DNA of 22,557 nucleotides from a virus, in IMG/VR virus record IMGVR_UViG_3300010148_000133, positions 1 to 22,557 of that record; one strand, written 5' to 3'. The translations under genes were made by a program, and so were the position numbers. Positions 6,152 through 21,416 of this stretch are shown piece after piece; position 1 is the stretch's first letter; each line of letters starts with the position of its first letter. The notes under the pieces are model-generated. The model was not told where the DNA came from and searched no databases. It worked only from the letters and a program-made list of their open reading frames with translations.

Positions 6152-6826
6152 ATGGCATTTTGGACACAAAATCATAGTGTAAACTCATCAGGGATTGGCA
6201 CTAAAGATCCAAAAAGGAAATATCGATTTAAAATAAGCATCAACTCGCTCAATGATAATGGCTGTGTTTGGTGGGCAAAAACTGTCGCGAAACCTTCATT
6301 TGAAATCACAGAGAGTGAGCACACCTTTTTGACTCATAAATTTTATTACCCGGGAAGAATTAGTTGGAATGAAATAGAAATGACATTAGTTGATCCTGTT
6401 TCACCCGGTGCTGTTGCAAACTTGAACGCAATGATTAGAGCACAGGGATACGCTGTTCCTTCTGAGGACTTATCTGGGACATCTTTTGAAACAATGTCTA
6501 AAGGTAAAGGCGCAAATGCATTGGGTGCTGTTTTAATTCAACAACTCGACGCTGCTGGTGATGTTATCGAAACTTGGGAACTTAAAAATCCTTTCATTAA
6601 AGGGGTTAAGTACGGAGACCTAGACTATACTTCTGATGACTTATTGGAAATTTCTCTTAGTCTCAGATACGATTGGGCTACTTGTACAATTGGATCAGGT
6701 GATGGTGTTGATTCATCTAACGACAGTATAGGAACTAATTTAGTTGCTGGTCAACCAAGTGATGTTAGAGGTGGACGTTCATTCTTTAACGCTGGGGACA
6801 CTGCATCTGACGGCTCTAGCGACTAG
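6152..6826 (+). CDS. gp19: Tail tube protein (first copy)
   Basis: A 224-residue tail tube subunit of the gp19 type, forming the inner channel for DNA. The family pattern is clear: N-terminal MAFWT, a strand with KYRFKISI, a Lys-Pro-Ser turn at residues 47-49, then FLTHKFYYPGRISWNEIEMT followed by LVDP. In the second half come ETWELKNPFIKGVKYGDLDY, TSDDLLEISLSLRYDWA and a Ser/Asp/Gly-rich end. T4 gp19 has about 163 residues, so this one has a longer C-terminal tail. The ATG at 6152 follows CAGGAG. It lies between the sheath gene and a paralogue that repeats all these motifs. The function is confident from position and motif order. Confidence 0.9.
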   Translation: MAFWTQNHSVNSSGIGTKDPKRKYRFKISINSLNDNGCVWWAKTVAKPSFEITESEHTFLTHKFYYPGRISWNEIEMTLVDPVSPGAVANLNAMIRAQGYAVPSEDLSGTSFETMSKGKGANALGAVLIQQLDAAGDVIETWELKNPFIKGVKYGDLDYTSDDLLEISLSLRYDWATCTIGSGDGVDSSNDSIGTNLVAGQPSDVRGGRSFFNAGDTASDGSSD

Positions 6827-6837
6827 TAGGATATGAA

Positions 6838-7656
6838 GTGGCCTTTTGGACAAAACAATTAGGGACAGGTAAAGGGCAGAGTCTACAGCCAAAATTTGGA
6901 GACAGGTTTATTGTGATGTTTGGGGGCACTAATTCCTCTTTCGCTAGTAACATAGTATTCACAGTAAAGAGTGTAGACAAGCCCTCTGTTCAAATAGATA
7001 CAAAAGAGTTTAAACTTGTTAACCACAAGTTTAAATATCCCGGTACCGTTACATGGCAACCTATTAAAATGACATTTGTTGACATGGCTGGTAGTTTTAA
7101 CGATGGGATAACAATACCTCAGTTTGAATATTTTAGTTCAGAGCACACTAACATCGGAGTAAAAGGTGAGAAGTTACTTACCCCAAATTTCCAAAACACT
7201 GCTATGGCTTTAGCGTATCTTTTGTATTCTAGTGGATATGATACGCCGGGGTTTGAAACCGTTAAGGGGATGAACACGGCTATACAAAAAAACCTTTCAA
7301 TCAATTCTTTTAATAAAATCACAATACAAATGCTTGACACCGATTATACTCCCGATTCTCCTAACAACATTAAAGTAGTTGAAAGTTGGGAATTGTTTAA
7401 TCCAATAGTTAGATCAATAAATTGGGGTAGTCTAGCCTACACTAGCGGAGATTTAGTAGAGTGCACATTAGATATTGACTATGATTTTGCTGAGATATCT
7501 TCTGGTCAATTGATGGGACAAGAAGGATTGAGGGTTGACGAATTCGTCGACGACGTAGAAGAAGCAGAAGACATCGCTACCAATGGTGAAGAAAACGGTG
7601 AAGAAGTAGAAGAAATAAACGTTCAGGACGATCCCAGCCTAAGAGCAGAAGAGTGA
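6838..7656 (+). CDS. Tail tube paralogue with acidic tail (GTG start)
   Basis: A 272-residue paralogue of the preceding tube protein. Shared signs are MAFWT at the N-terminus, the Lys-Pro-Ser turn at 48-50, HKFKYPGTVTWQPIKMTFVD, then ESWELFNPIVRSINWGSLAY and TSGDLVECTLDIDYDFA. Translation must start at GTG 6838 to keep MAFW. The nearby ATG at 6833 is in another frame and soon stops. AGTAGGA upstream is a modest binding site. An extra region of about 30 residues sits after the first WQP block, and residues about 232-272 are extremely acidic (repeated Glu/Asp). It could be a minor tube subunit, a tube initiator or terminator, or a second major tube protein; the sequence does not decide this. 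Confidence 0.85.
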   Translation: MAFWTKQLGTGKGQSLQPKFGDRFIVMFGGTNSSFASNIVFTVKSVDKPSVQIDTKEFKLVNHKFKYPGTVTWQPIKMTFVDMAGSFNDGITIPQFEYFSSEHTNIGVKGEKLLTPNFQNTAMALAYLLYSSGYDTPGFETVKGMNTAIQKNLSINSFNKITIQMLDTDYTPDSPNNIKVVESWELFNPIVRSINWGSLAYTSGDLVECTLDIDYDFAEISSGQLMGQEGLRVDEFVDDVEEAEDIATNGEENGEEVEEINVQDDPSLRAEE

Positions 7657-16100: not shown

Positions 16101-16399
16101 CTTTTTCATTTGTCACTGGTCTTGGTGGATATCACTGTGTTACCAGTTGCACTGTTGAAATCAAAGATCTGGATAAAGATAATGGGATCAGTATAGCCAC
16201 CACTGTAGTTGGTAAGTGGGTATATTCAGGTGTAGCCTCGGAGACTAGACCAAATCATAGTGGTAATAAATCACTCGGTATTCAATCTGATAAGAAAAAA
16301 GAATCTAAAGAATGCGAAAATCTGATTAATGCTGGTCGTGTTTCTTTATTGCAGGGAATTGATCCAGAGCCACCTGAAGAAGGAGAACCGACAGAATGA
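13139..16399 (+). CDS. Large baseplate hub-like structural protein
   Basis: A 1086-residue protein in the place of a baseplate hub. The N-terminal 350 residues are mixed, with a Gln/Asn-rich link near 200-225. Around residues 480-565 there is a beta-rich domain (YNPDYGRLRIKYGTFYYD, YHLDLCIVDHELSS, EWTLTLNYRGYIQQYL). Near 660-710 is an acidic, Pro-rich linker. The C-terminal third holds VYDVTLNLNGVFDYYPGSII, then GLGGYHCVTSCTVEIKD and TTVVGKWVYSG. That final set, a strand pair, a glycine turn and a Trp strand, recalls the end of hub proteins of contractile tails. No lysozyme residues were recognised, so it is not an obvious gp5. The start overlaps the LysM stop by one base, and the end overlaps the next start by 4. 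The product is inference from context. Confidence 0.62.
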   Translation: MARKKFQDLVDAGTNVGWQNIWKVWKGKEPGLLESIANWFAGNSWGDLPPGESATDPKITTEEAALLKKALVNWLSNTSGGMQYQADVNMKSVEAFKSRLEAVGVVGATQSKLVNQFKNDDFTTKDENAPHKGDALLTPLHKAVGTSVGDQNAINAAYASTVSQPFAGDGVYEYIQKYAGIDVNPPGGDTSAKVEEAKLKELDAAVNQMQNNPQNNSNDGTPLEKQNRENTTADYVNALQCALMSELTKLADFRKKGAKGQVSGQKGWAEKYAYGARVVNVETNNPEGVINDMMLPRYVATKGTIPNAFFANLGGYGHVFLVDEDGKERLFPNQLGVGLSNVNPIAFAPDGETEADKQGNSSQNERDHVTVIPDSTMSLESMKVTYEGGTPATARSDVAVALTYKFKGLAVLEIPFVVRDYEIDEDTLVITPDISGKVSHTVRPMDLITVPLGLGDSSGNGKMMRRQYNPDYGRLRIKYGTFYYDSSDSNKITNKIIEMLREDQPNFPASGGEARLKEYGRTEYHLDLCIVDHELSSTDAKKDEWTLTLNYRGYIQQYLTSPIFDAMQSKEDLKELQKKEEEINKKAADANCSASQSRILQRQFNGEIASRRVAKYRNIMKRLIKQNLTLSIDVKNETLDNILRQEFDFETQSALSGDGKEEFNTASIQTDSGSDPAGSDPPALTPEEQKALDDKKNKQGLKDAKSREGKTPIPFFFLGDVLRVSADAIFDDTDGGIDPNIEELNYNDFRFIACPFAYKNPKKPNSTTQYINITEIPISSAFFQSWFHENVVKKNKEFYPIGTFIRDLCEVAMSNLLSEYCFGDSLEPKIHYTTTFHRAKKITHSKSSYKKPRSSGNRALLQPAATGEAASSFFIIHPMNQNYFSLVDNEVFNPKDHRIPYLPFGRRCTTGPVKSANFNKQNAPYQREARFANSSQSGLTLLSNVYDVTLNLNGVFDYYPGSIIYIDPVDLTKGKPAGQPSEPYEEGSFSFVTGLGGYHCVTSCTVEIKDLDKDNGISIATTVVGKWVYSGVASETRPNHSGNKSLGIQSDKKKESKECENLINAGRVSLLQGIDPEPPEEGEPTE

Positions 16400-17691
16400 G
16401 TAGACAATTTAAGAAATCAAACAATCTTCCAACAGCCGCTTCTTGGTTTTTTAATGCAAAATGGAAAACCCAAGCGTATGGAAACATCATCCCACCAAAG
16501 GCAGTTAAAGATTTGAATTTTGTAGAAAGAATGTATTATGGAGTAATGGACCCCAGTAATTACAGTGTTGTTCCCAAAGAAGAACATTTAGTGCCTCTAC
16601 TTGGTTCAGACAATTCTGTTGGGCCTAGAGTTTTTGATTTTGTTGCTGATGCTTGGTCTGTCATGAATCTAAATTTCATGGTGGCCTGTCAGAAGGGGTT
16701 GATACAAAAAGAAGGAGCCGCTTTTGCAGAAATGAAAGCCATTCAGGCATATGAAAATCCTATTAGCAAATACACAAATTTCATAAGAAACGCTTTAAAT
16801 TATTATAATACAAATTATATTTTAAATGTAACCAGTGTAAACAATATAACATCTTATGATGACTATGTCAATCACTTTTTTAAAATGTTAGAAAATAATT
16901 CTGTTGGGAGACCAATAACTTTAAGTAGATGGCTTAAATCATACGGTTCCTCTGTGTTAGATACCGGATTGGCAATAAAGTATTTCGATATGCCAATTGG
17001 AAATGATCAATCAAAAATTGATCAAATATTAGATCACCCATCATTTGAATATTTTTCTAATTTATGTTTGAATATGGGATTTAGTATCTTAAGACATACT
17101 CCAAATATATTATTATTTGATATATCTTCTCCTGCTAGTAGACCTTATTTATCTAGAAAAGGATTAGTTAGATTAGATAATATATTTGAAAGAAGATATA
17201 ATAGATCTTATATATATGACATGAATCTATTATATAATAATATTAATATATACTATAATAAATTTGTAACTAGATATCCTAGTAGTCAAATAAAGAAAAT
17301 AGTATGTAAAAGAAGTACTCAAGTATGGATCTATAGAGAGCCTGTTTCATTAGATACAAGACCAGAAGAATTGAAACTTATAAGTGATTGTTTAAAAATA
17401 AAAAACCTAGAGCAAGGTTATCCTTTTTCAGAATCAAGAATACAACAAATTTATGATAAAGCAAAATACTTTCAGAAAAAATTTGACACAGACAAAGTAA
17501 TGGGTTATATTAGTAGTGAGTTCAAAGATCAGGTTTGGAACAAGGACCATGGCTTCCATGATTTGACTTTGCAAACTCAAAACACAACAAGAACAACAAC
17601 AGGAAACTTACAACCCGGAGAAACAAGTGCTCCAACAAGCAACACACCATCAGGTGGTTCAAGCGGAGGCTCAACATCTTCAGGTTATTAA
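16396..17691 (+). CDS. Unidentified protein downstream of the hub gene
   Basis: A 431-residue protein that I do not recognise. It starts with ATGA overlapping the hub stop by 4 bases, so it is probably co-translated with tail genes and may be structural. The N-terminal half is rich in Asn, Tyr and Phe, with SWFFNAKWKTQAYGNIIPP, an ERMYYGVMDP segment and a FDFVADAWSVMNLNFMVACQ helix. The middle has long Asn/Tyr/Ile-rich stretches, and the last 45 residues are Thr/Gly/Ser-rich and look disordered. From about 16800 to 17330 the DNA is unusually AT-rich, with many ATA and AGA codons, unlike the tail genes before it. There is no signal peptide or membrane segment. The reading frame is certain; the function is not. 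Confidence 0.8.
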   Translation: MSRQFKKSNNLPTAASWFFNAKWKTQAYGNIIPPKAVKDLNFVERMYYGVMDPSNYSVVPKEEHLVPLLGSDNSVGPRVFDFVADAWSVMNLNFMVACQKGLIQKEGAAFAEMKAIQAYENPISKYTNFIRNALNYYNTNYILNVTSVNNITSYDDYVNHFFKMLENNSVGRPITLSRWLKSYGSSVLDTGLAIKYFDMPIGNDQSKIDQILDHPSFEYFSNLCLNMGFSILRHTPNILLFDISSPASRPYLSRKGLVRLDNIFERRYNRSYIYDMNLLYNNINIYYNKFVTRYPSSQIKKIVCKRSTQVWIYREPVSLDTRPEELKLISDCLKIKNLEQGYPFSESRIQQIYDKAKYFQKKFDTDKVMGYISSEFKDQVWNKDHGFHDLTLQTQNTTRTTTGNLQPGETSAPTSNTPSGGSSGGSTSSGY

Positions 17692-17704: not shown

Positions 17705-18904
17705 ATGATATTCCAAATTATGGATGATAAGAAAGATTGTATAGGTGTTTATGCAAAAAATAAATTTATATATGATAGAATACCAGCAAATATTAGCAAA
17801 ACTTGGGGTTTTTCAAGACACTTAGAAGATTATAATATTGAGTATGCATATTTGTGGTCAATGGGAAAAAATATAGGTAAAACCTGCCCAGAACACTTAG
17901 AGGCTAGATGGAAAACAGCAGAAAAGAAAATAAGATCTCACTTCAAGTCGATATATAAAACAAAAATTAATTTAGAAGATATATGTTTTTTTGATATAGT
18001 ACCCGAAAAGCAACTTATGCATTATTATCAAACAAAAAATGAAATTTGTGAATGGGTTTTTGAGAATTTCGAAAGACCAGAAAACTATTCTTTGCTTTTA
18101 GATACATATAAAACAATTAATTCAATATCTAAAAATAAAGTTAACATTAATTTGAATAAACTATATAGGCATTCAAAAATAGATAATAAGGCGAGACACT
18201 TACTTAAGTGGATCCAAGAAAATCCTAGCCCAATTGTTAATTATGATTTGTTTGGAAGCGTAACCGGTAGACTTACTACCAAAGTAGGGAGTTTTCCCAT
18301 AATGAATTTAAAAACAGAAATAAAAGACATTGTCGAACCTAAATGGGATTGCTTCGTTGAACTTGATTTTAATGCAGCAGAAATTAGAACAATGATTTCC
18401 CTAATGGGACAAGAACAACCACAGGAGGATATACATGAGTGGAACATCAAAAACATATTTAAAGAAGACATCAGCAGAGAGAAGGCAAAACAAAGATTTT
18501 TTGCTTGGTTATACAACTCGGAAGATAATTCAATCGATTCCGAGTATTACAGCAAGCAAATGTTGGTCGATAAATTCTACTGCGAGCAAAAAGAGGAAAT
18601 ACGGAACCCTTTTGGTAGAAGGACAGGTTGCGATAGATTTCACGCACTTAACTACCTCTTGCAATCCGCTTCCTCCGACAACTGTTTGGACAGGGTCAAC
18701 AAAATCGAAAGATTCTTAAGAGATAGGAGAAGTTATGTCGCCTTTACTATACACGATTGTGTTATTATCGACCTTCATAGGGATGATCGTGATCTCATTC
18801 CACATATCAAGCAGATTTTCGAAGATTCGAAATTAGGAAACTTCAAATCTGGCTGTAAAATAGGAAAAAATCTGAGAGATATGAGGAATTTTTCATGGCA
18901 ATAA
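17705..18904 (+). CDS. Minimal family-A (PolA-like) DNA polymerase
   Basis: A 399-residue protein with the polymerase motifs of DNA polymerase I but no recognisable 3'-5' or 5'-3' exonuclease domain. Seen in order are VTGRL at 186-190, motif A at 219-227 (ELDFNAAEI, with D221 and E226), and QEDIHEW at 240-246. The O-helix motif B REKAKQRFFAWLY at 258-270 gives R258, K262, F266 and Y270. QSASSDN at 320-326 and motif C IHDCVII at 349-355 follow. In E. coli Pol I motif C reads HDE; here it is HDC. The first 170 residues, possibly the thumb, are not recognisable. ATG 17705 has AAGGAGG at 17693-17699; an in-frame ATG at 17627 lies inside the previous gene. Activity is expected but the E to C change leaves doubt. 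Confidence 0.82.
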   Translation: MIFQIMDDKKDCIGVYAKNKFIYDRIPANISKTWGFSRHLEDYNIEYAYLWSMGKNIGKTCPEHLEARWKTAEKKIRSHFKSIYKTKINLEDICFFDIVPEKQLMHYYQTKNEICEWVFENFERPENYSLLLDTYKTINSISKNKVNINLNKLYRHSKIDNKARHLLKWIQENPSPIVNYDLFGSVTGRLTTKVGSFPIMNLKTEIKDIVEPKWDCFVELDFNAAEIRTMISLMGQEQPQEDIHEWNIKNIFKEDISREKAKQRFFAWLYNSEDNSIDSEYYSKQMLVDKFYCEQKEEIRNPFGRRTGCDRFHALNYLLQSASSDNCLDRVNKIERFLRDRRSYVAFTIHDCVIIDLHRDDRDLIPHIKQIFEDSKLGNFKSGCKIGKNLRDMRNFSWQ

Positions 18905-19098
18905 ATAACGGAGACCTAGTAATTACTTTGCCAAAAATTAAAGAAATTCAAAGTATTGTTAATTTAGAGGTGGGTCAAATGGGTTTTGTTGTCGAAATTG
19001 AGCATGGTACACAAAGTACTGTGTATGGTGTAATAATTGATGGTAAAAAATATTATTTATTTGATGATGAAATAAAAAAAGTGGAGGAAACATGTTAA
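18895..19098 (+). CDS. Small KOW/SH3-like barrel protein, unknown role
   Basis: A 67-residue protein made of short beta strands: GDLVITLPK, then a GQMGFVVEIEHG turn and VYGVIIDGKKYYLFDDEIKK. This is the usual look of a small SH3/KOW-type barrel, as in many phage hypothetical proteins. No catalytic residues are evident. Its start overlaps the polymerase gene by 10 bases and its end overlaps the next gene by 7, so the three are probably made together. ATGAGGA just upstream serves as the binding site. It could be an accessory to the polymerase or to the tubulin-like protein; nothing in the sequence settles this. Confidence 0.8.
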   Translation: MAINNGDLVITLPKIKEIQSIVNLEVGQMGFVVEIEHGTQSTVYGVIIDGKKYYLFDDEIKKVEETC

Positions 19099-19904
19099 TC
19101 ATCGGACTCGGAAATGCAGGATGCAATATATCTGAATTATTTAAAAAACATAAACAGTATCAAGTTGAACTGTTAGACGAAGATAAAGGAATCAAAAAAT
19201 GTGGTTCTGTTGAGGAATATGATGAGATCAATTATAAGCCTCGCAAGAAAGCCGTCAAATCTGCCACTGAGGGCATTCTATTTGTGTGCGGCAGTGGTAA
19301 GATATCTGGAGCCACTCTACGCGTCCTAGAGGGCCTCAAGCACGTTAAAATGACTGTTGTTTATATTGTGCCTGATTTAGAACAATGTTCAAATTTGGAA
19401 CACAGAAGGCACAAGGTTCACTTTGGAATCCTTCAACAATATGCTAGATGCGGCTCTATAGATGAACTATTAGTTCTGGATAACAAAAAGATCGCAGACT
19501 TTGTTGGATATGGAACTGTTTTGAAATATTATGATAATGTAAATCATTATATATATTCCGTGATACATACTTTAAATTATTGTAACAATGTAAAACCAGA
19601 TTTCGACACAAGACATAAAATAAAAGATATAAGTAAAATATCGACACTAGGATGGGGTATTTTTGGAGAAAAAGAAGAAAAAATGTTTTTTTCCCTTGAC
19701 AACATAACTGAGACGAGTTATATTATTAACATAAATGAGGATGAACTAAATAATGACATTACTGTAATGCCTACTGTTCAAGCGATGGTTAAAGATAACA
19801 AATCGTTGAATAGAGAAACTTCTTTCGGCATTTGGTCTACTGAAGAAGAAAAAAGTTACTTTTACATAAAACATTATACTCATATTATACAAGGGGAGGA
19901 ATGA
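19092..19904 (+). CDS. FtsZ/tubulin-like GTPase (divergent)
   Basis: A 270-residue protein whose motif order resembles FtsZ and tubulins, GTPases that form filaments. Seen: MLIIGLGNAGCNIS at the N-terminus, like the FtsZ G-rich G1 loop; FVCGSGKISGATLRVLE near 64-80, where FtsZ has GGGTGTG; a VVYIVPDLE strand near 89-97; LLVLDNKKI at 126-134, like the FtsZ PNDKL; and NNVKPDFDTRHKI at 165-177 followed by STLGWGIFGE. The last recalls the synergy loop NVDFADV and its MGSGVA strand. The distance from the G-rich loop to the synergy Asp (about 103 residues) equals that in E. coli FtsZ as remembered. It lacks the exact GGGTG[TS]G signature and the long FtsZ tail. TGGAGG precedes the ATG. Filament formation is inference. 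Confidence 0.68.
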   Translation: MLIIGLGNAGCNISELFKKHKQYQVELLDEDKGIKKCGSVEEYDEINYKPRKKAVKSATEGILFVCGSGKISGATLRVLEGLKHVKMTVVYIVPDLEQCSNLEHRRHKVHFGILQQYARCGSIDELLVLDNKKIADFVGYGTVLKYYDNVNHYIYSVIHTLNYCNNVKPDFDTRHKIKDISKISTLGWGIFGEKEEKMFFSLDNITETSYIININEDELNNDITVMPTVQAMVKDNKSLNRETSFGIWSTEEEKSYFYIKHYTHIIQGEE

Positions 19905-19993: not shown

Positions 19994-20022
19994 TTGACAA
20001 GATAACCTCAACGGGTTATATT
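19994..20022 (+). promoter_or_regulatory. Host sigma70-type promoter P1
   Basis: TTGACA at 19994-19999 and TATATT at 20017-20022, with a 17-base spacer. A7 tracts at 19973-19979 and 19984-19990 look like UP elements. An inverted repeat ATAACC/GGTTAT lies within the spacer and start of the -10. The expected start is near 20029, about 24 bases before the lipoprotein ATG. Confidence 0.9.
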
Positions 20023-20167: not shown

Positions 20168-20196
20168 TTGACAATGTAATCCTAACAGGTTATATT
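20168..20196 (+). promoter_or_regulatory. Host sigma70-type promoter P2
   Basis: TTGACA at 20168-20173 and TATATT at 20191-20196, with a 17-base spacer. A7 tracts at 20147-20153 and 20160-20166 mirror those of P1, the upstream tract at exactly the same distance from the -35. The inverted repeat TAACAGGTTA lies at 20183-20192. The start is expected near 20203, shortly before AAGGAG at 20213. Confidence 0.9.
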
Positions 20197-20223: not shown

Positions 20224-20478
20224 ATGAGCATCACACAAAATTTCCCAGTACACACTGGAACATTCACTACACAAAAAGGCGAAAAGCGTACAATGAACTT
20301 CATCAAGACTTCAGACTTACCGTCCTCTATAACAAGTCTGCATTCGCGAGTTCGAAAACTTCAACCGGGGTTTGAGACAGTATATGATGTAGATAAGGGA
20401 CAATATCGTACCTTTAATTATAATACGTTAGTGGGCAATATTTCCATGAATCGTCAAAGTGTAACAATCCAAAGTTAG
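20224..20478 (+). CDS. Small WYL_2/DUF2693-like protein
   Basis: An 84-residue protein with its own promoter (P2) and binding site AAGGAG at 20213-20218. The pattern GTFTTQKGEKRTMNFIKTSD in the first part and YDVDKGQYRTFNYNTLVG in the second matches what I remember of the WYL_2 (DUF2693) family, a small Sm-like/SH3 barrel common in T4-like phages: a strand with KxGxxRTM and a later D-x-x-x-x-x-x-Arg-x-Phe strand. The role is not known. Early expression from a host promoter fits a host-takeover or regulatory role, but that is inference. A short hairpin with T run follows, so it is probably a single-gene transcript. Confidence 0.78.
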   Translation: MSITQNFPVHTGTFTTQKGEKRTMNFIKTSDLPSSITSLHSRVRKLQPGFETVYDVDKGQYRTFNYNTLVGNISMNRQSVTIQS

Positions 20479-20495
20479 TTTTTTGGGGTTTTGGG

Positions 20496-20525
20496 CGTTT
20501 TTCCTTAAAAACGTTCATTTTTTTC
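20496..20525 (+). terminator. Weak terminator between the small gene and P3
   Basis: CGTTTTT (20496-20502) pairs with AAAAACG (20507-20513) around CCTT, followed by TTCA and seven T ending at 20524. The stem is AT-rich, so strength is uncertain. Its position, just before promoter P3, fits a transcript end. Confidence 0.55.
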
Positions 20526-20554
20526 TTGACACGGTTTAAAATACGTGTTATATT
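20526..20554 (+). promoter_or_regulatory. Host sigma70-type promoter P3 for the ssDNA-binding protein gene
   Basis: TTGACA at 20526-20531 and TATATT at 20549-20554, with the same 17-base spacer as P1 and P2. ACACG/CGTGT flank an inverted repeat in the spacer. The start is expected near 20561, giving a leader of about 88 bases, far longer than those from P1 and P2. Confidence 0.9.
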
Positions 20555-20648: not shown

Positions 20649-21416
20649 ATGGCTATAAATATTGAAGCGATGCGAGCCAAACTTAACGCATCTAAAACAG
20701 GCAGAAAAGGTCAAACTAATAATACGAAATGGCGACCAACTCAAGGAGACCAAACCATTCGTATTCTTCCTACAGCAGATGGAGATCCGTTTAAGGAATT
20801 CCACTTCCATTATAATGTAGGCAAAAACCCCGGCATTCTTTGTCCAAAGAAAAATCATGGTGAAGCATGCCCAATTTGTGATTTCGCATCAGAATTATGG
20901 AGACAAGGAGTAGAAAATGATGATAACACTCTAAAGTCTGAAGCGAAAAAACTATTTGTAAGAAAAAGATATTATTCCCCTATCATTGTCCGTGGCAATG
21001 AAGCGGAAGGTGTAAAGATTTGGTCTTATGGAAAGCAGGCTTATGAAACCTTACTAGGTTATGTTCTTGATGCTGATTATGGTGACATTACAGATCCAGA
21101 GACAGGAACCGACCTTGTATTGAATTATGATGTCCCCGGTACCCCCGGCTCTTTTCCTAAGACCACATTGAAACCTCGTCGACGCCCGAGTGTTCTTTGT
21201 GATGATGCAGTCGCTGACTGCGCTGAACTATTAGAATCAGTCCCAGAAATCGGTGGTCTTTTTGAAAGAAAAACCACAGAAGAAATTAAGTCTATACTTG
21301 ATGATTTCTTATCTACCGACACGTCCTCCGAAAGTAGATCTCGTGAAACATCAAAGTACAACAATGGAACCTCGGGTGTCGACAAGGCCTTCGATAAATT
21401 TATGAATGAAGAATAA
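20649..21416 (+). CDS. gp32: gp32-type single-stranded DNA-binding protein
   Basis: A 255-residue ssDNA-binding protein that coats DNA during replication and recombination. The core contains a zinc motif H52-x12-C65-x8-C74-x2-C77 (ending in ACPIC), close to T4 gp32 (H64, C77, C87, C90, with x12, x9, x2). Aromatic and basic residues around FVRKRYYSPIIVRG and IWSYGKQAYE fit the binding groove. The N-terminal segment LNASKTGRKG is basic, as in the cooperativity region. From about residue 200 the chain becomes acidic and Ser-rich and ends DKAFDKFMNEE, like the T4 acidic tail that recruits partners. T4 gp32 has about 301 residues. The gene has its own promoter P3, a structured leader and a following terminator, so it is a separate unit. 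Confidence 0.93.
   Translation: MAINIEAMRAKLNASKTGRKGQTNNTKWRPTQGDQTIRILPTADGDPFKEFHFHYNVGKNPGILCPKKNHGEACPICDFASELWRQGVENDDNTLKSEAKKLFVRKRYYSPIIVRGNEAEGVKIWSYGKQAYETLLGYVLDADYGDITDPETGTDLVLNYDVPGTPGSFPKTTLKPRRRPSVLCDDAVADCAELLESVPEIGGLFERKTTEEIKSILDDFLSTDTSSESRSRETSKYNNGTSGVDKAFDKFMNEE

Follow-up and report, generated by a model that had tools for sequence, protein, structure and literature searches.

A divergent tubulin/FtsZ-fold protein in the DNA replication block of an uncultured phage clade

The locus

The window, meaning the whole 22,557-nt stretch of viral DNA analysed, carries a replication block in which a PolA-like DNA polymerase gene is followed by a 67-aa ORF, a tubulin-like gene, a small ORF and the gene for a single-stranded DNA-binding protein (SSB). 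Leaving aside the 67-aa ORF, which only part of the family has, nearly all loci show the same order (Table 1). The tubulin-like gene, whose product is called P0001, lies exactly where the initial annotation placed it, encodes 270 residues and faces no long rival ORF on the opposite strand. The polymerase ORF begins mechanically at 17627, with its likely ATG at 17705, and the polymerase palm motifs DFNxAE and HDxxxxD are conserved. The start of the P0001 gene overlaps the 67-aa ORF by 7 nt, and the 67-aa ORF in turn overlaps the end of the polymerase gene by 10 nt. The 67-aa ORF begins MAINNGDLVITLPKIKE and looks like a small SH3/KOW-type beta-barrel. No tRNA and no Rfam match was found in the whole window. 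Farther upstream, two tandem genes (6152-6826 and 6838-7656) match the same tail tube family (phrog_4542).

Table 1. Genes and predicted regulatory features of the replication block (window coordinates)
Feature	Position	Strand	Remarks
431-aa ORF, no assigned function	16396..17691	+	Conserved upstream border of the block; promoter near 3' end
Promoter identical to that in the tubulin-like gene	17483..17511	+	Within the 431-aa ORF, upstream of the polymerase gene
PolA-like DNA polymerase domain protein	17705..18904	+	About 397-399 aa; phrog_17, E 9.7e-18; invariable upstream partner
67-aa ORF	18895..19098	+	Covers last 10 nt of the polymerase gene and first 7 nt of the tubulin-like gene; in part of the family only
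Tubulin/FtsZ-fold protein P0001	19092..19904	+	270 aa; AlphaFold2 model, Foldseek, family conservation
Promoter TTGACA-N17-TATATT	19696..19724	+	In codons 202-211 of the tubulin-like gene; exact match
Promoter copy, intergenic	19994..20022	+	Exact pattern match
Promoter copy, intergenic	20168..20196	+	Upstream of the 84-aa ORF; exact pattern match
84-aa ORF, phrog_1086 (function not assigned)	20224..20478	+	Usual downstream neighbour
Terminator-like hairpin	20492..20517	+	Between the 84-aa ORF and ssb; pattern match only
Promoter upstream of ssb	20526..20554	+	Exact pattern match
Single-stranded DNA-binding protein	20649..21416	+	phrog_1192, E 1.8e-26; conserved synteny

The FtsZ-like motifs quoted in the initial annotation all occur in P0001 and in the order given: GLGNAGCN (residues 5-12), CGSGKISGA (66-74), VPD (93-95), DNKKI (130-134), NNVKPDFDTRHKI (165-177) and STLGWGIFGE (184-193). 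The set goes beyond chance, because G5, G7 and G10 are invariant among 115 non-redundant homologues with identity down to 25% and N131, within DNK, is retained in 110 of them. The last two motifs had been matched to the FtsZ synergy loop region, which holds for residues 165-177, the equivalent of T7; STLGWGIFGE is instead the S7 strand that comes after it.

Fold and superfamily assignment

Checked against the alternative of a non-tubulin predicted fold, the proposed tubulin kinship is borne out by both structure prediction and fold search. A high-confidence AlphaFold2 model, built with 30 diverse homologues (pLDDT 93.6, pTM 0.91), has 330 Foldseek matches in the PDB at E<=1e-3. The 50 PDB matches listed are all FtsZ or TubZ chains, together with one chain of a doublet-microtubule entry. 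TubZ 2xka is the best of them (E 3.6e-11), FtsZ 1fsz aligns with a Foldseek TMq of 0.71, and sequence identity in the fold alignments with FtsZ is about 12%. A first model, from 22 close homologues (pLDDT 66, low TM-scores), is not relied on and points in the same fold direction; in a viral structure library its top match is the annotated phage FtsZ A0A6J5RW92 (E 7.7e-6), with PhuZ (Noxifer) at rank 5.

Sequence searches by themselves barely detect this kinship. The Pfam Tubulin profile is matched below threshold by 3 of 30 members (best E 0.0058), phmmer and hmmsearch of the PDB give no significant match, and PHROGs returns only weak matches to unknowns. The top Pfam matches are Rossmann families, namely TrkA_N (18 of 30 members, best E 7e-4) and saccharopine dehydrogenase (16 of 30), all below curated cut-offs. 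Profile-profile comparison reaches further: the 115-member family is collinear with a combined FtsZ and PhuZ profile over residues 2-162 (score 46.2, E 1.3e-5, probability 80.5%), against a maximum of 19.6 in 100 column shuffles and 18.3 for the reversed profile, and the match is weaker against FtsZ alone or PhuZ alone. The superfamily assignment is secure from the fold and profile evidence together, and the tubulin fold of P0001 is practically certain.

Anatomy and nucleotide site

Model, fold search and alignment place P0001 in the tubulin/FtsZ superfamily as a minimal and highly divergent member, with the entire N-terminal nucleotide domain, a central helix H7 and a C-terminal domain. The modelled elements run S1-H1-S2, a shortened S3-H3, S4-T4-H4-S5-H5-S6-H6-H7, and then a C-terminal sheet with helices. 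The stretch from H7 to S7 is short, helix H8 is absent from the model, and the chain ends with the last strand and a few residues, leaving no C-terminal tail. At 270 aa (family median 274), P0001 compares with 383 aa for E. coli FtsZ and 327 aa for phiKZ PhuZ, and is to our knowledge among the smallest members of the tubulin superfamily.

The nucleotide site is retained in part. The T1 loop GxGxAG is present, with all three glycines invariant in the 115 members. The T4 signature GGGTG[ST]G is absent, its place being taken by CGSGKISGA in P0001 and CGSGKIAG-like sequences in the family, with G67 retained in 112 of 115. N131 in T6, at the position of FtsZ IPN and tubulin DN, and N151 at the start of H7 are both asparagine in 110 of 115 members; these guanine-pocket positions were assigned by profile alignment, in which the H7 position is uncertain by one residue. 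Both asparagines are missing together in the same five members, which carry L or M plus Y instead (Fisher p 6.5e-9, relatedness ignored), and a quick tree places the five on two separate branches, giving two losses. Joint loss is as expected if both residues touch the same guanine base. It points to a single ligand common to the two residues and to nucleotide binding as something a lineage can dispense with; the gene is retained even where both guanine-pocket asparagines are gone.

Conservation of the T1 glycines and of both guanine-contacting asparagines makes it most likely that P0001 still binds GTP or GDP. At T7, only 6 of 115 members have acidic residues at both position 170 and position 172, a count that depends on the alignment of the shortened loop. 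With these acids not conserved, GTP hydrolysis by the usual T7-in-trans mechanism has probably been lost, and other acidic residues (176, 179, D203, E207) might compensate.

Family and distribution

The P0001 family comprises more than 200 IMG/VR loci, with identity to P0001 down to 25%. Scans of IMG/VR found 7 loci at first, 24 with a small alignment and 238 with a larger one (the best 80 of 238 were kept), and a scan with divergent members found 207, overlapping in part with the earlier set. All members are IMG/VR metagenome contigs, and the sample series and the known habitats of the nearest relatives are read as marine. Each of nine large contigs (120-192 kb) carries a single copy.

Cultured phages gave no counterpart. 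A tblastn search of 50,697 phage records with P0001 finds nothing, divergent members of two subclades have no match in cultured phages either, and GTDB genome contigs yielded no confirmed relative. Among cultured phages, Flavobacterium phage immuto (terminase 48% identity) and Microcystis phage Mel-JY01 stand closest to this one, and an HMM finds a tubulin-like copy in neither. Phage immuto has a PolA-family polymerase and an SSB and lacks the tubulin-like gene. An ORF beside the SSB gene of Mel-JY01 was considered as a polymerase, and alignment showed otherwise.

The T4-like label of the initial annotation fits the tail sheath and tube, terminase and portal PHROGs and fails on the nearest cultured relatives, which are not T4; the phage is T4-related only loosely, in the broad sense. 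A 187-kb relative encodes a T4-superfamily-type terminase and portal, a UvsX-like recombinase and a DnaB-like helicase. The same relative has two DNA polymerases, one of 1175 aa (phrog_405, L044:381-3908) and one PolA-like, of 400 aa, beside the tubulin-like gene (L042:13685-14887). Between its ssb and recA genes lies an ORF (L042:17620-18111) that resembles an FKBP-type peptidyl-prolyl isomerase, a name taken from sequence only. The openly searchable journal literature yielded no description of the tubulin-like family, which is classed as a new family within the tubulin superfamily whose genomic association is unusual.

Linkage to the polymerase

Loci were also picked by the polymerase alone, to avoid circularity; the query came from tubulin-carrying loci, and distant polymerase relatives may differ. 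The tubulin-like gene adjoins the polymerase gene in 78 of the 80 loci kept. In the other two the contig ends 2 and 460 nt past the polymerase, so that the association holds in 78 of 78 testable loci. Where no small ORF intervenes, the end of the polymerase gene and the start of the tubulin-like gene overlap by 1-13 nt in 98 of 149 loci (redundant contigs included). Protein distances of the two genes are strongly correlated (r=0.88), against a maximum of 0.04 in 999 permutations. The initial annotation had remarked that a tubulin beside tail and replication genes in a T4-like phage would be unusual. The gene is better described as a core replication-block gene across an uncultured clade. The linkage suggests that a cytoskeleton-type protein is now a standing part of the DNA-replication machinery of these phages.

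A promoter embedded in the gene

The window holds 15 matches to the promoter pattern with at most two mismatches, against 5.2 expected, and one exact match lies inside the tubulin-like gene. Synonymous sites there are unusually constrained. Across the 115 members, codon 202 is CTT in 108 of 111 that encode Leu and codon 203 is GAC in 108 of 109 that encode Asp, where GAC makes up 40% of GAC plus GAT over the whole gene. In a test of synonymous constraint both codons stand out above all others in the gene (G/df 32 and 24, median 1.5), and the same test flags the corresponding Asp codon of the 431-aa ORF upstream. Promoter score plotted by position has its sole peak at the embedded site (10.6, median 7.1). 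We infer a sigma-70-type promoter inside the gene, conserved at synonymous sites, which probably feeds the 84-aa ORF and ssb.

Synonymous constraint and the promoter-score peak bear on a protein motif as well. The nearly invariant LDNxxExxY stretch had been considered as a catalytic or interface motif, a reading set aside because much of the constraint is exerted by the promoter at the DNA level; part of its conservation reflects the promoter. A search for TubZ-like iterons ended likewise, in that the repeats near the gene proved to be promoter copies. Between 19675 and 20198, the intergenic promoter copies share flank and spacer with the coding copy (D1 repeats). In one related contig (G004, the contig of L006), C-terminal fragments of the tubulin-like protein, with stops, lie downstream of the gene. 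The arrangement looks as if pieces of the gene had been duplicated into tandem promoters.

Possible functions

The reading favoured here, given about an even chance of being right, is that P0001 is a replication scaffold that binds guanine nucleotide and is impaired in its hydrolysis. Its assembly would be slow or static, or it would be a dimer, with bound nucleotide as the switch. Such a scaffold would organise the phage polymerase and SSB, or hold replicating phage DNA in place, and would not act as a freely dynamic cytomotive spindle. The reading draws on gene order, since in essentially every locus examined the polymerase gene is overlapped or closely followed by the tubulin-like gene, with the SSB gene downstream. 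Operon linkage is no proof of physical contact, and partition genes can also neighbour replication genes. A stricter version, in which P0001 is an obligate replisome component beside (perhaps bound to) the PolA-like polymerase, hydrolyses no GTP and in some lineages binds no nucleotide, is less likely than not. The initial annotation had offered a non-GTPase relative or a new filament family, and either may apply, with the guanine contacts retained in most members and the catalytic T7 acids not conserved.

The main rival, a possible if tentative reading, is a cytomotive filament like PhuZ or TubZ, in which subunits polymerise when bound to GTP and either bring the replicating genome to the centre or segregate it. 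It accounts for the full-length tubulin fold, with TubZ protofilament structures among the best matches, for a guanine pocket retained in 110 of 115 members, and for a place in the replication block, which suits genome positioning. A fold search cannot separate polymerising from non-polymerising tubulins. The asparagines are missing from a minority of just five members, and nucleotide-dependent polymerisation may be the rule. The filament sits poorly with unconserved T7 acids, an altered T4 and the absence of H8, and with two lineages that hold the gene without both guanine-pocket residues. P0001 also lacks a C-terminal tail such as is used in PhuZ and TubZ assembly (PMC3678025, PMC5322520). 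Five large contigs show no sequence match to chimallin, with a positive phiKZ control, a search that divergent shell proteins could escape.

An antagonist of host division, a dominant-negative mimic of FtsZ capping the protofilaments of the host protein, is improbable. A catalytically defective protein of FtsZ-like fold could act as such a cap, but P0001 has no close similarity to host FtsZ. Host-takeover genes are usually small, early and patchily distributed, and strict adjacency to the polymerase and co-divergence with it would be unexpected of one. Least probable is a Rossmann NAD(P)-binding enzyme with GxGxxG motifs that mimic tubulin loops, a reading which takes its cue from the TrkA_N and saccharopine dehydrogenase matches and is already close to refuted, as those matches fall below curated cut-offs, the fold matches listed are all of the tubulin superfamily and none is Rossmann, and H7 and the C-terminal domain match tubulin too.

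A large uncultured clade of marine phages counts among its core genes one for a tubulin-fold protein that standard searches miss. The family displays stepwise loss of the GTPase site, and its gene is tied to that of a DNA polymerase. Whether DNA replication can recruit cytoskeletal proteins becomes a testable question, and the family supplies natural variants that either keep or lack the guanine pocket.

Comparison with known systems

Tubulins have been described in Chimalliviridae and in scattered large phages (PMC11835377, PMC9123017, PMC7824862), and structures of PhuZ and TubZ are published (PMC3678025). Outside the nucleus-forming jumbo phages, of which they are considered a hallmark, only a handful of phage tubulins is known (PMC11835377). 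A survey of phage tubulins applied tubulin HMMs at E<1e-5 (PMC11835377), a threshold that the P0001 family would probably miss.

P0001 appears to be neither PhuZ nor TubZ. TubZ provides the top structural match and is likewise tied to an extrachromosomal genome, whereas P0001 is much shorter, has no C-terminal tail and neighbours a polymerase and an SSB. No tubR or tubC was recognised near P0001, where the 67-aa ORF is patchy in the family and the nearby repeats are promoter copies. PhuZ is also a phage-encoded tubulin fold, and Noxifer PhuZ is among the best viral-library matches of the first model. The P0001 family, in contrast, occurs on contigs of up to about 192 kb from another clade, and its profile similarity to PhuZ alone is weak. 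The two are not linked by tblastn, as P0001 has 0 matches in the phage collection in which phiKZ PhuZ matches 179 records. The first model's best viral fold match, A0A6J5RW92, is a protein of 452 aa from an uncultured Caudovirales phage, annotated "FtsZ Cell division GTPase".

With FtsZ, P0001 shares the tubulin fold over its whole length, the T1 glycines, the S6 Asn and H7. It differs in its length, in a T4 signature and T7 acids that are not conserved, and in lacking H8 and the tail, and its gene lies in a phage replication operon, not among division genes. FtsZl1 and FtsZl2 offer a precedent for strongly diverged members of the superfamily outside cell division (Makarova and Koonin 2010, PMC2875224). 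These proteins are cellular, and FtsZl1 is found with VWA and membrane-remodelling genes and has a C-terminal part unlike that of FtsZ (PMC2875224), whereas P0001 retains the C-terminal domain.
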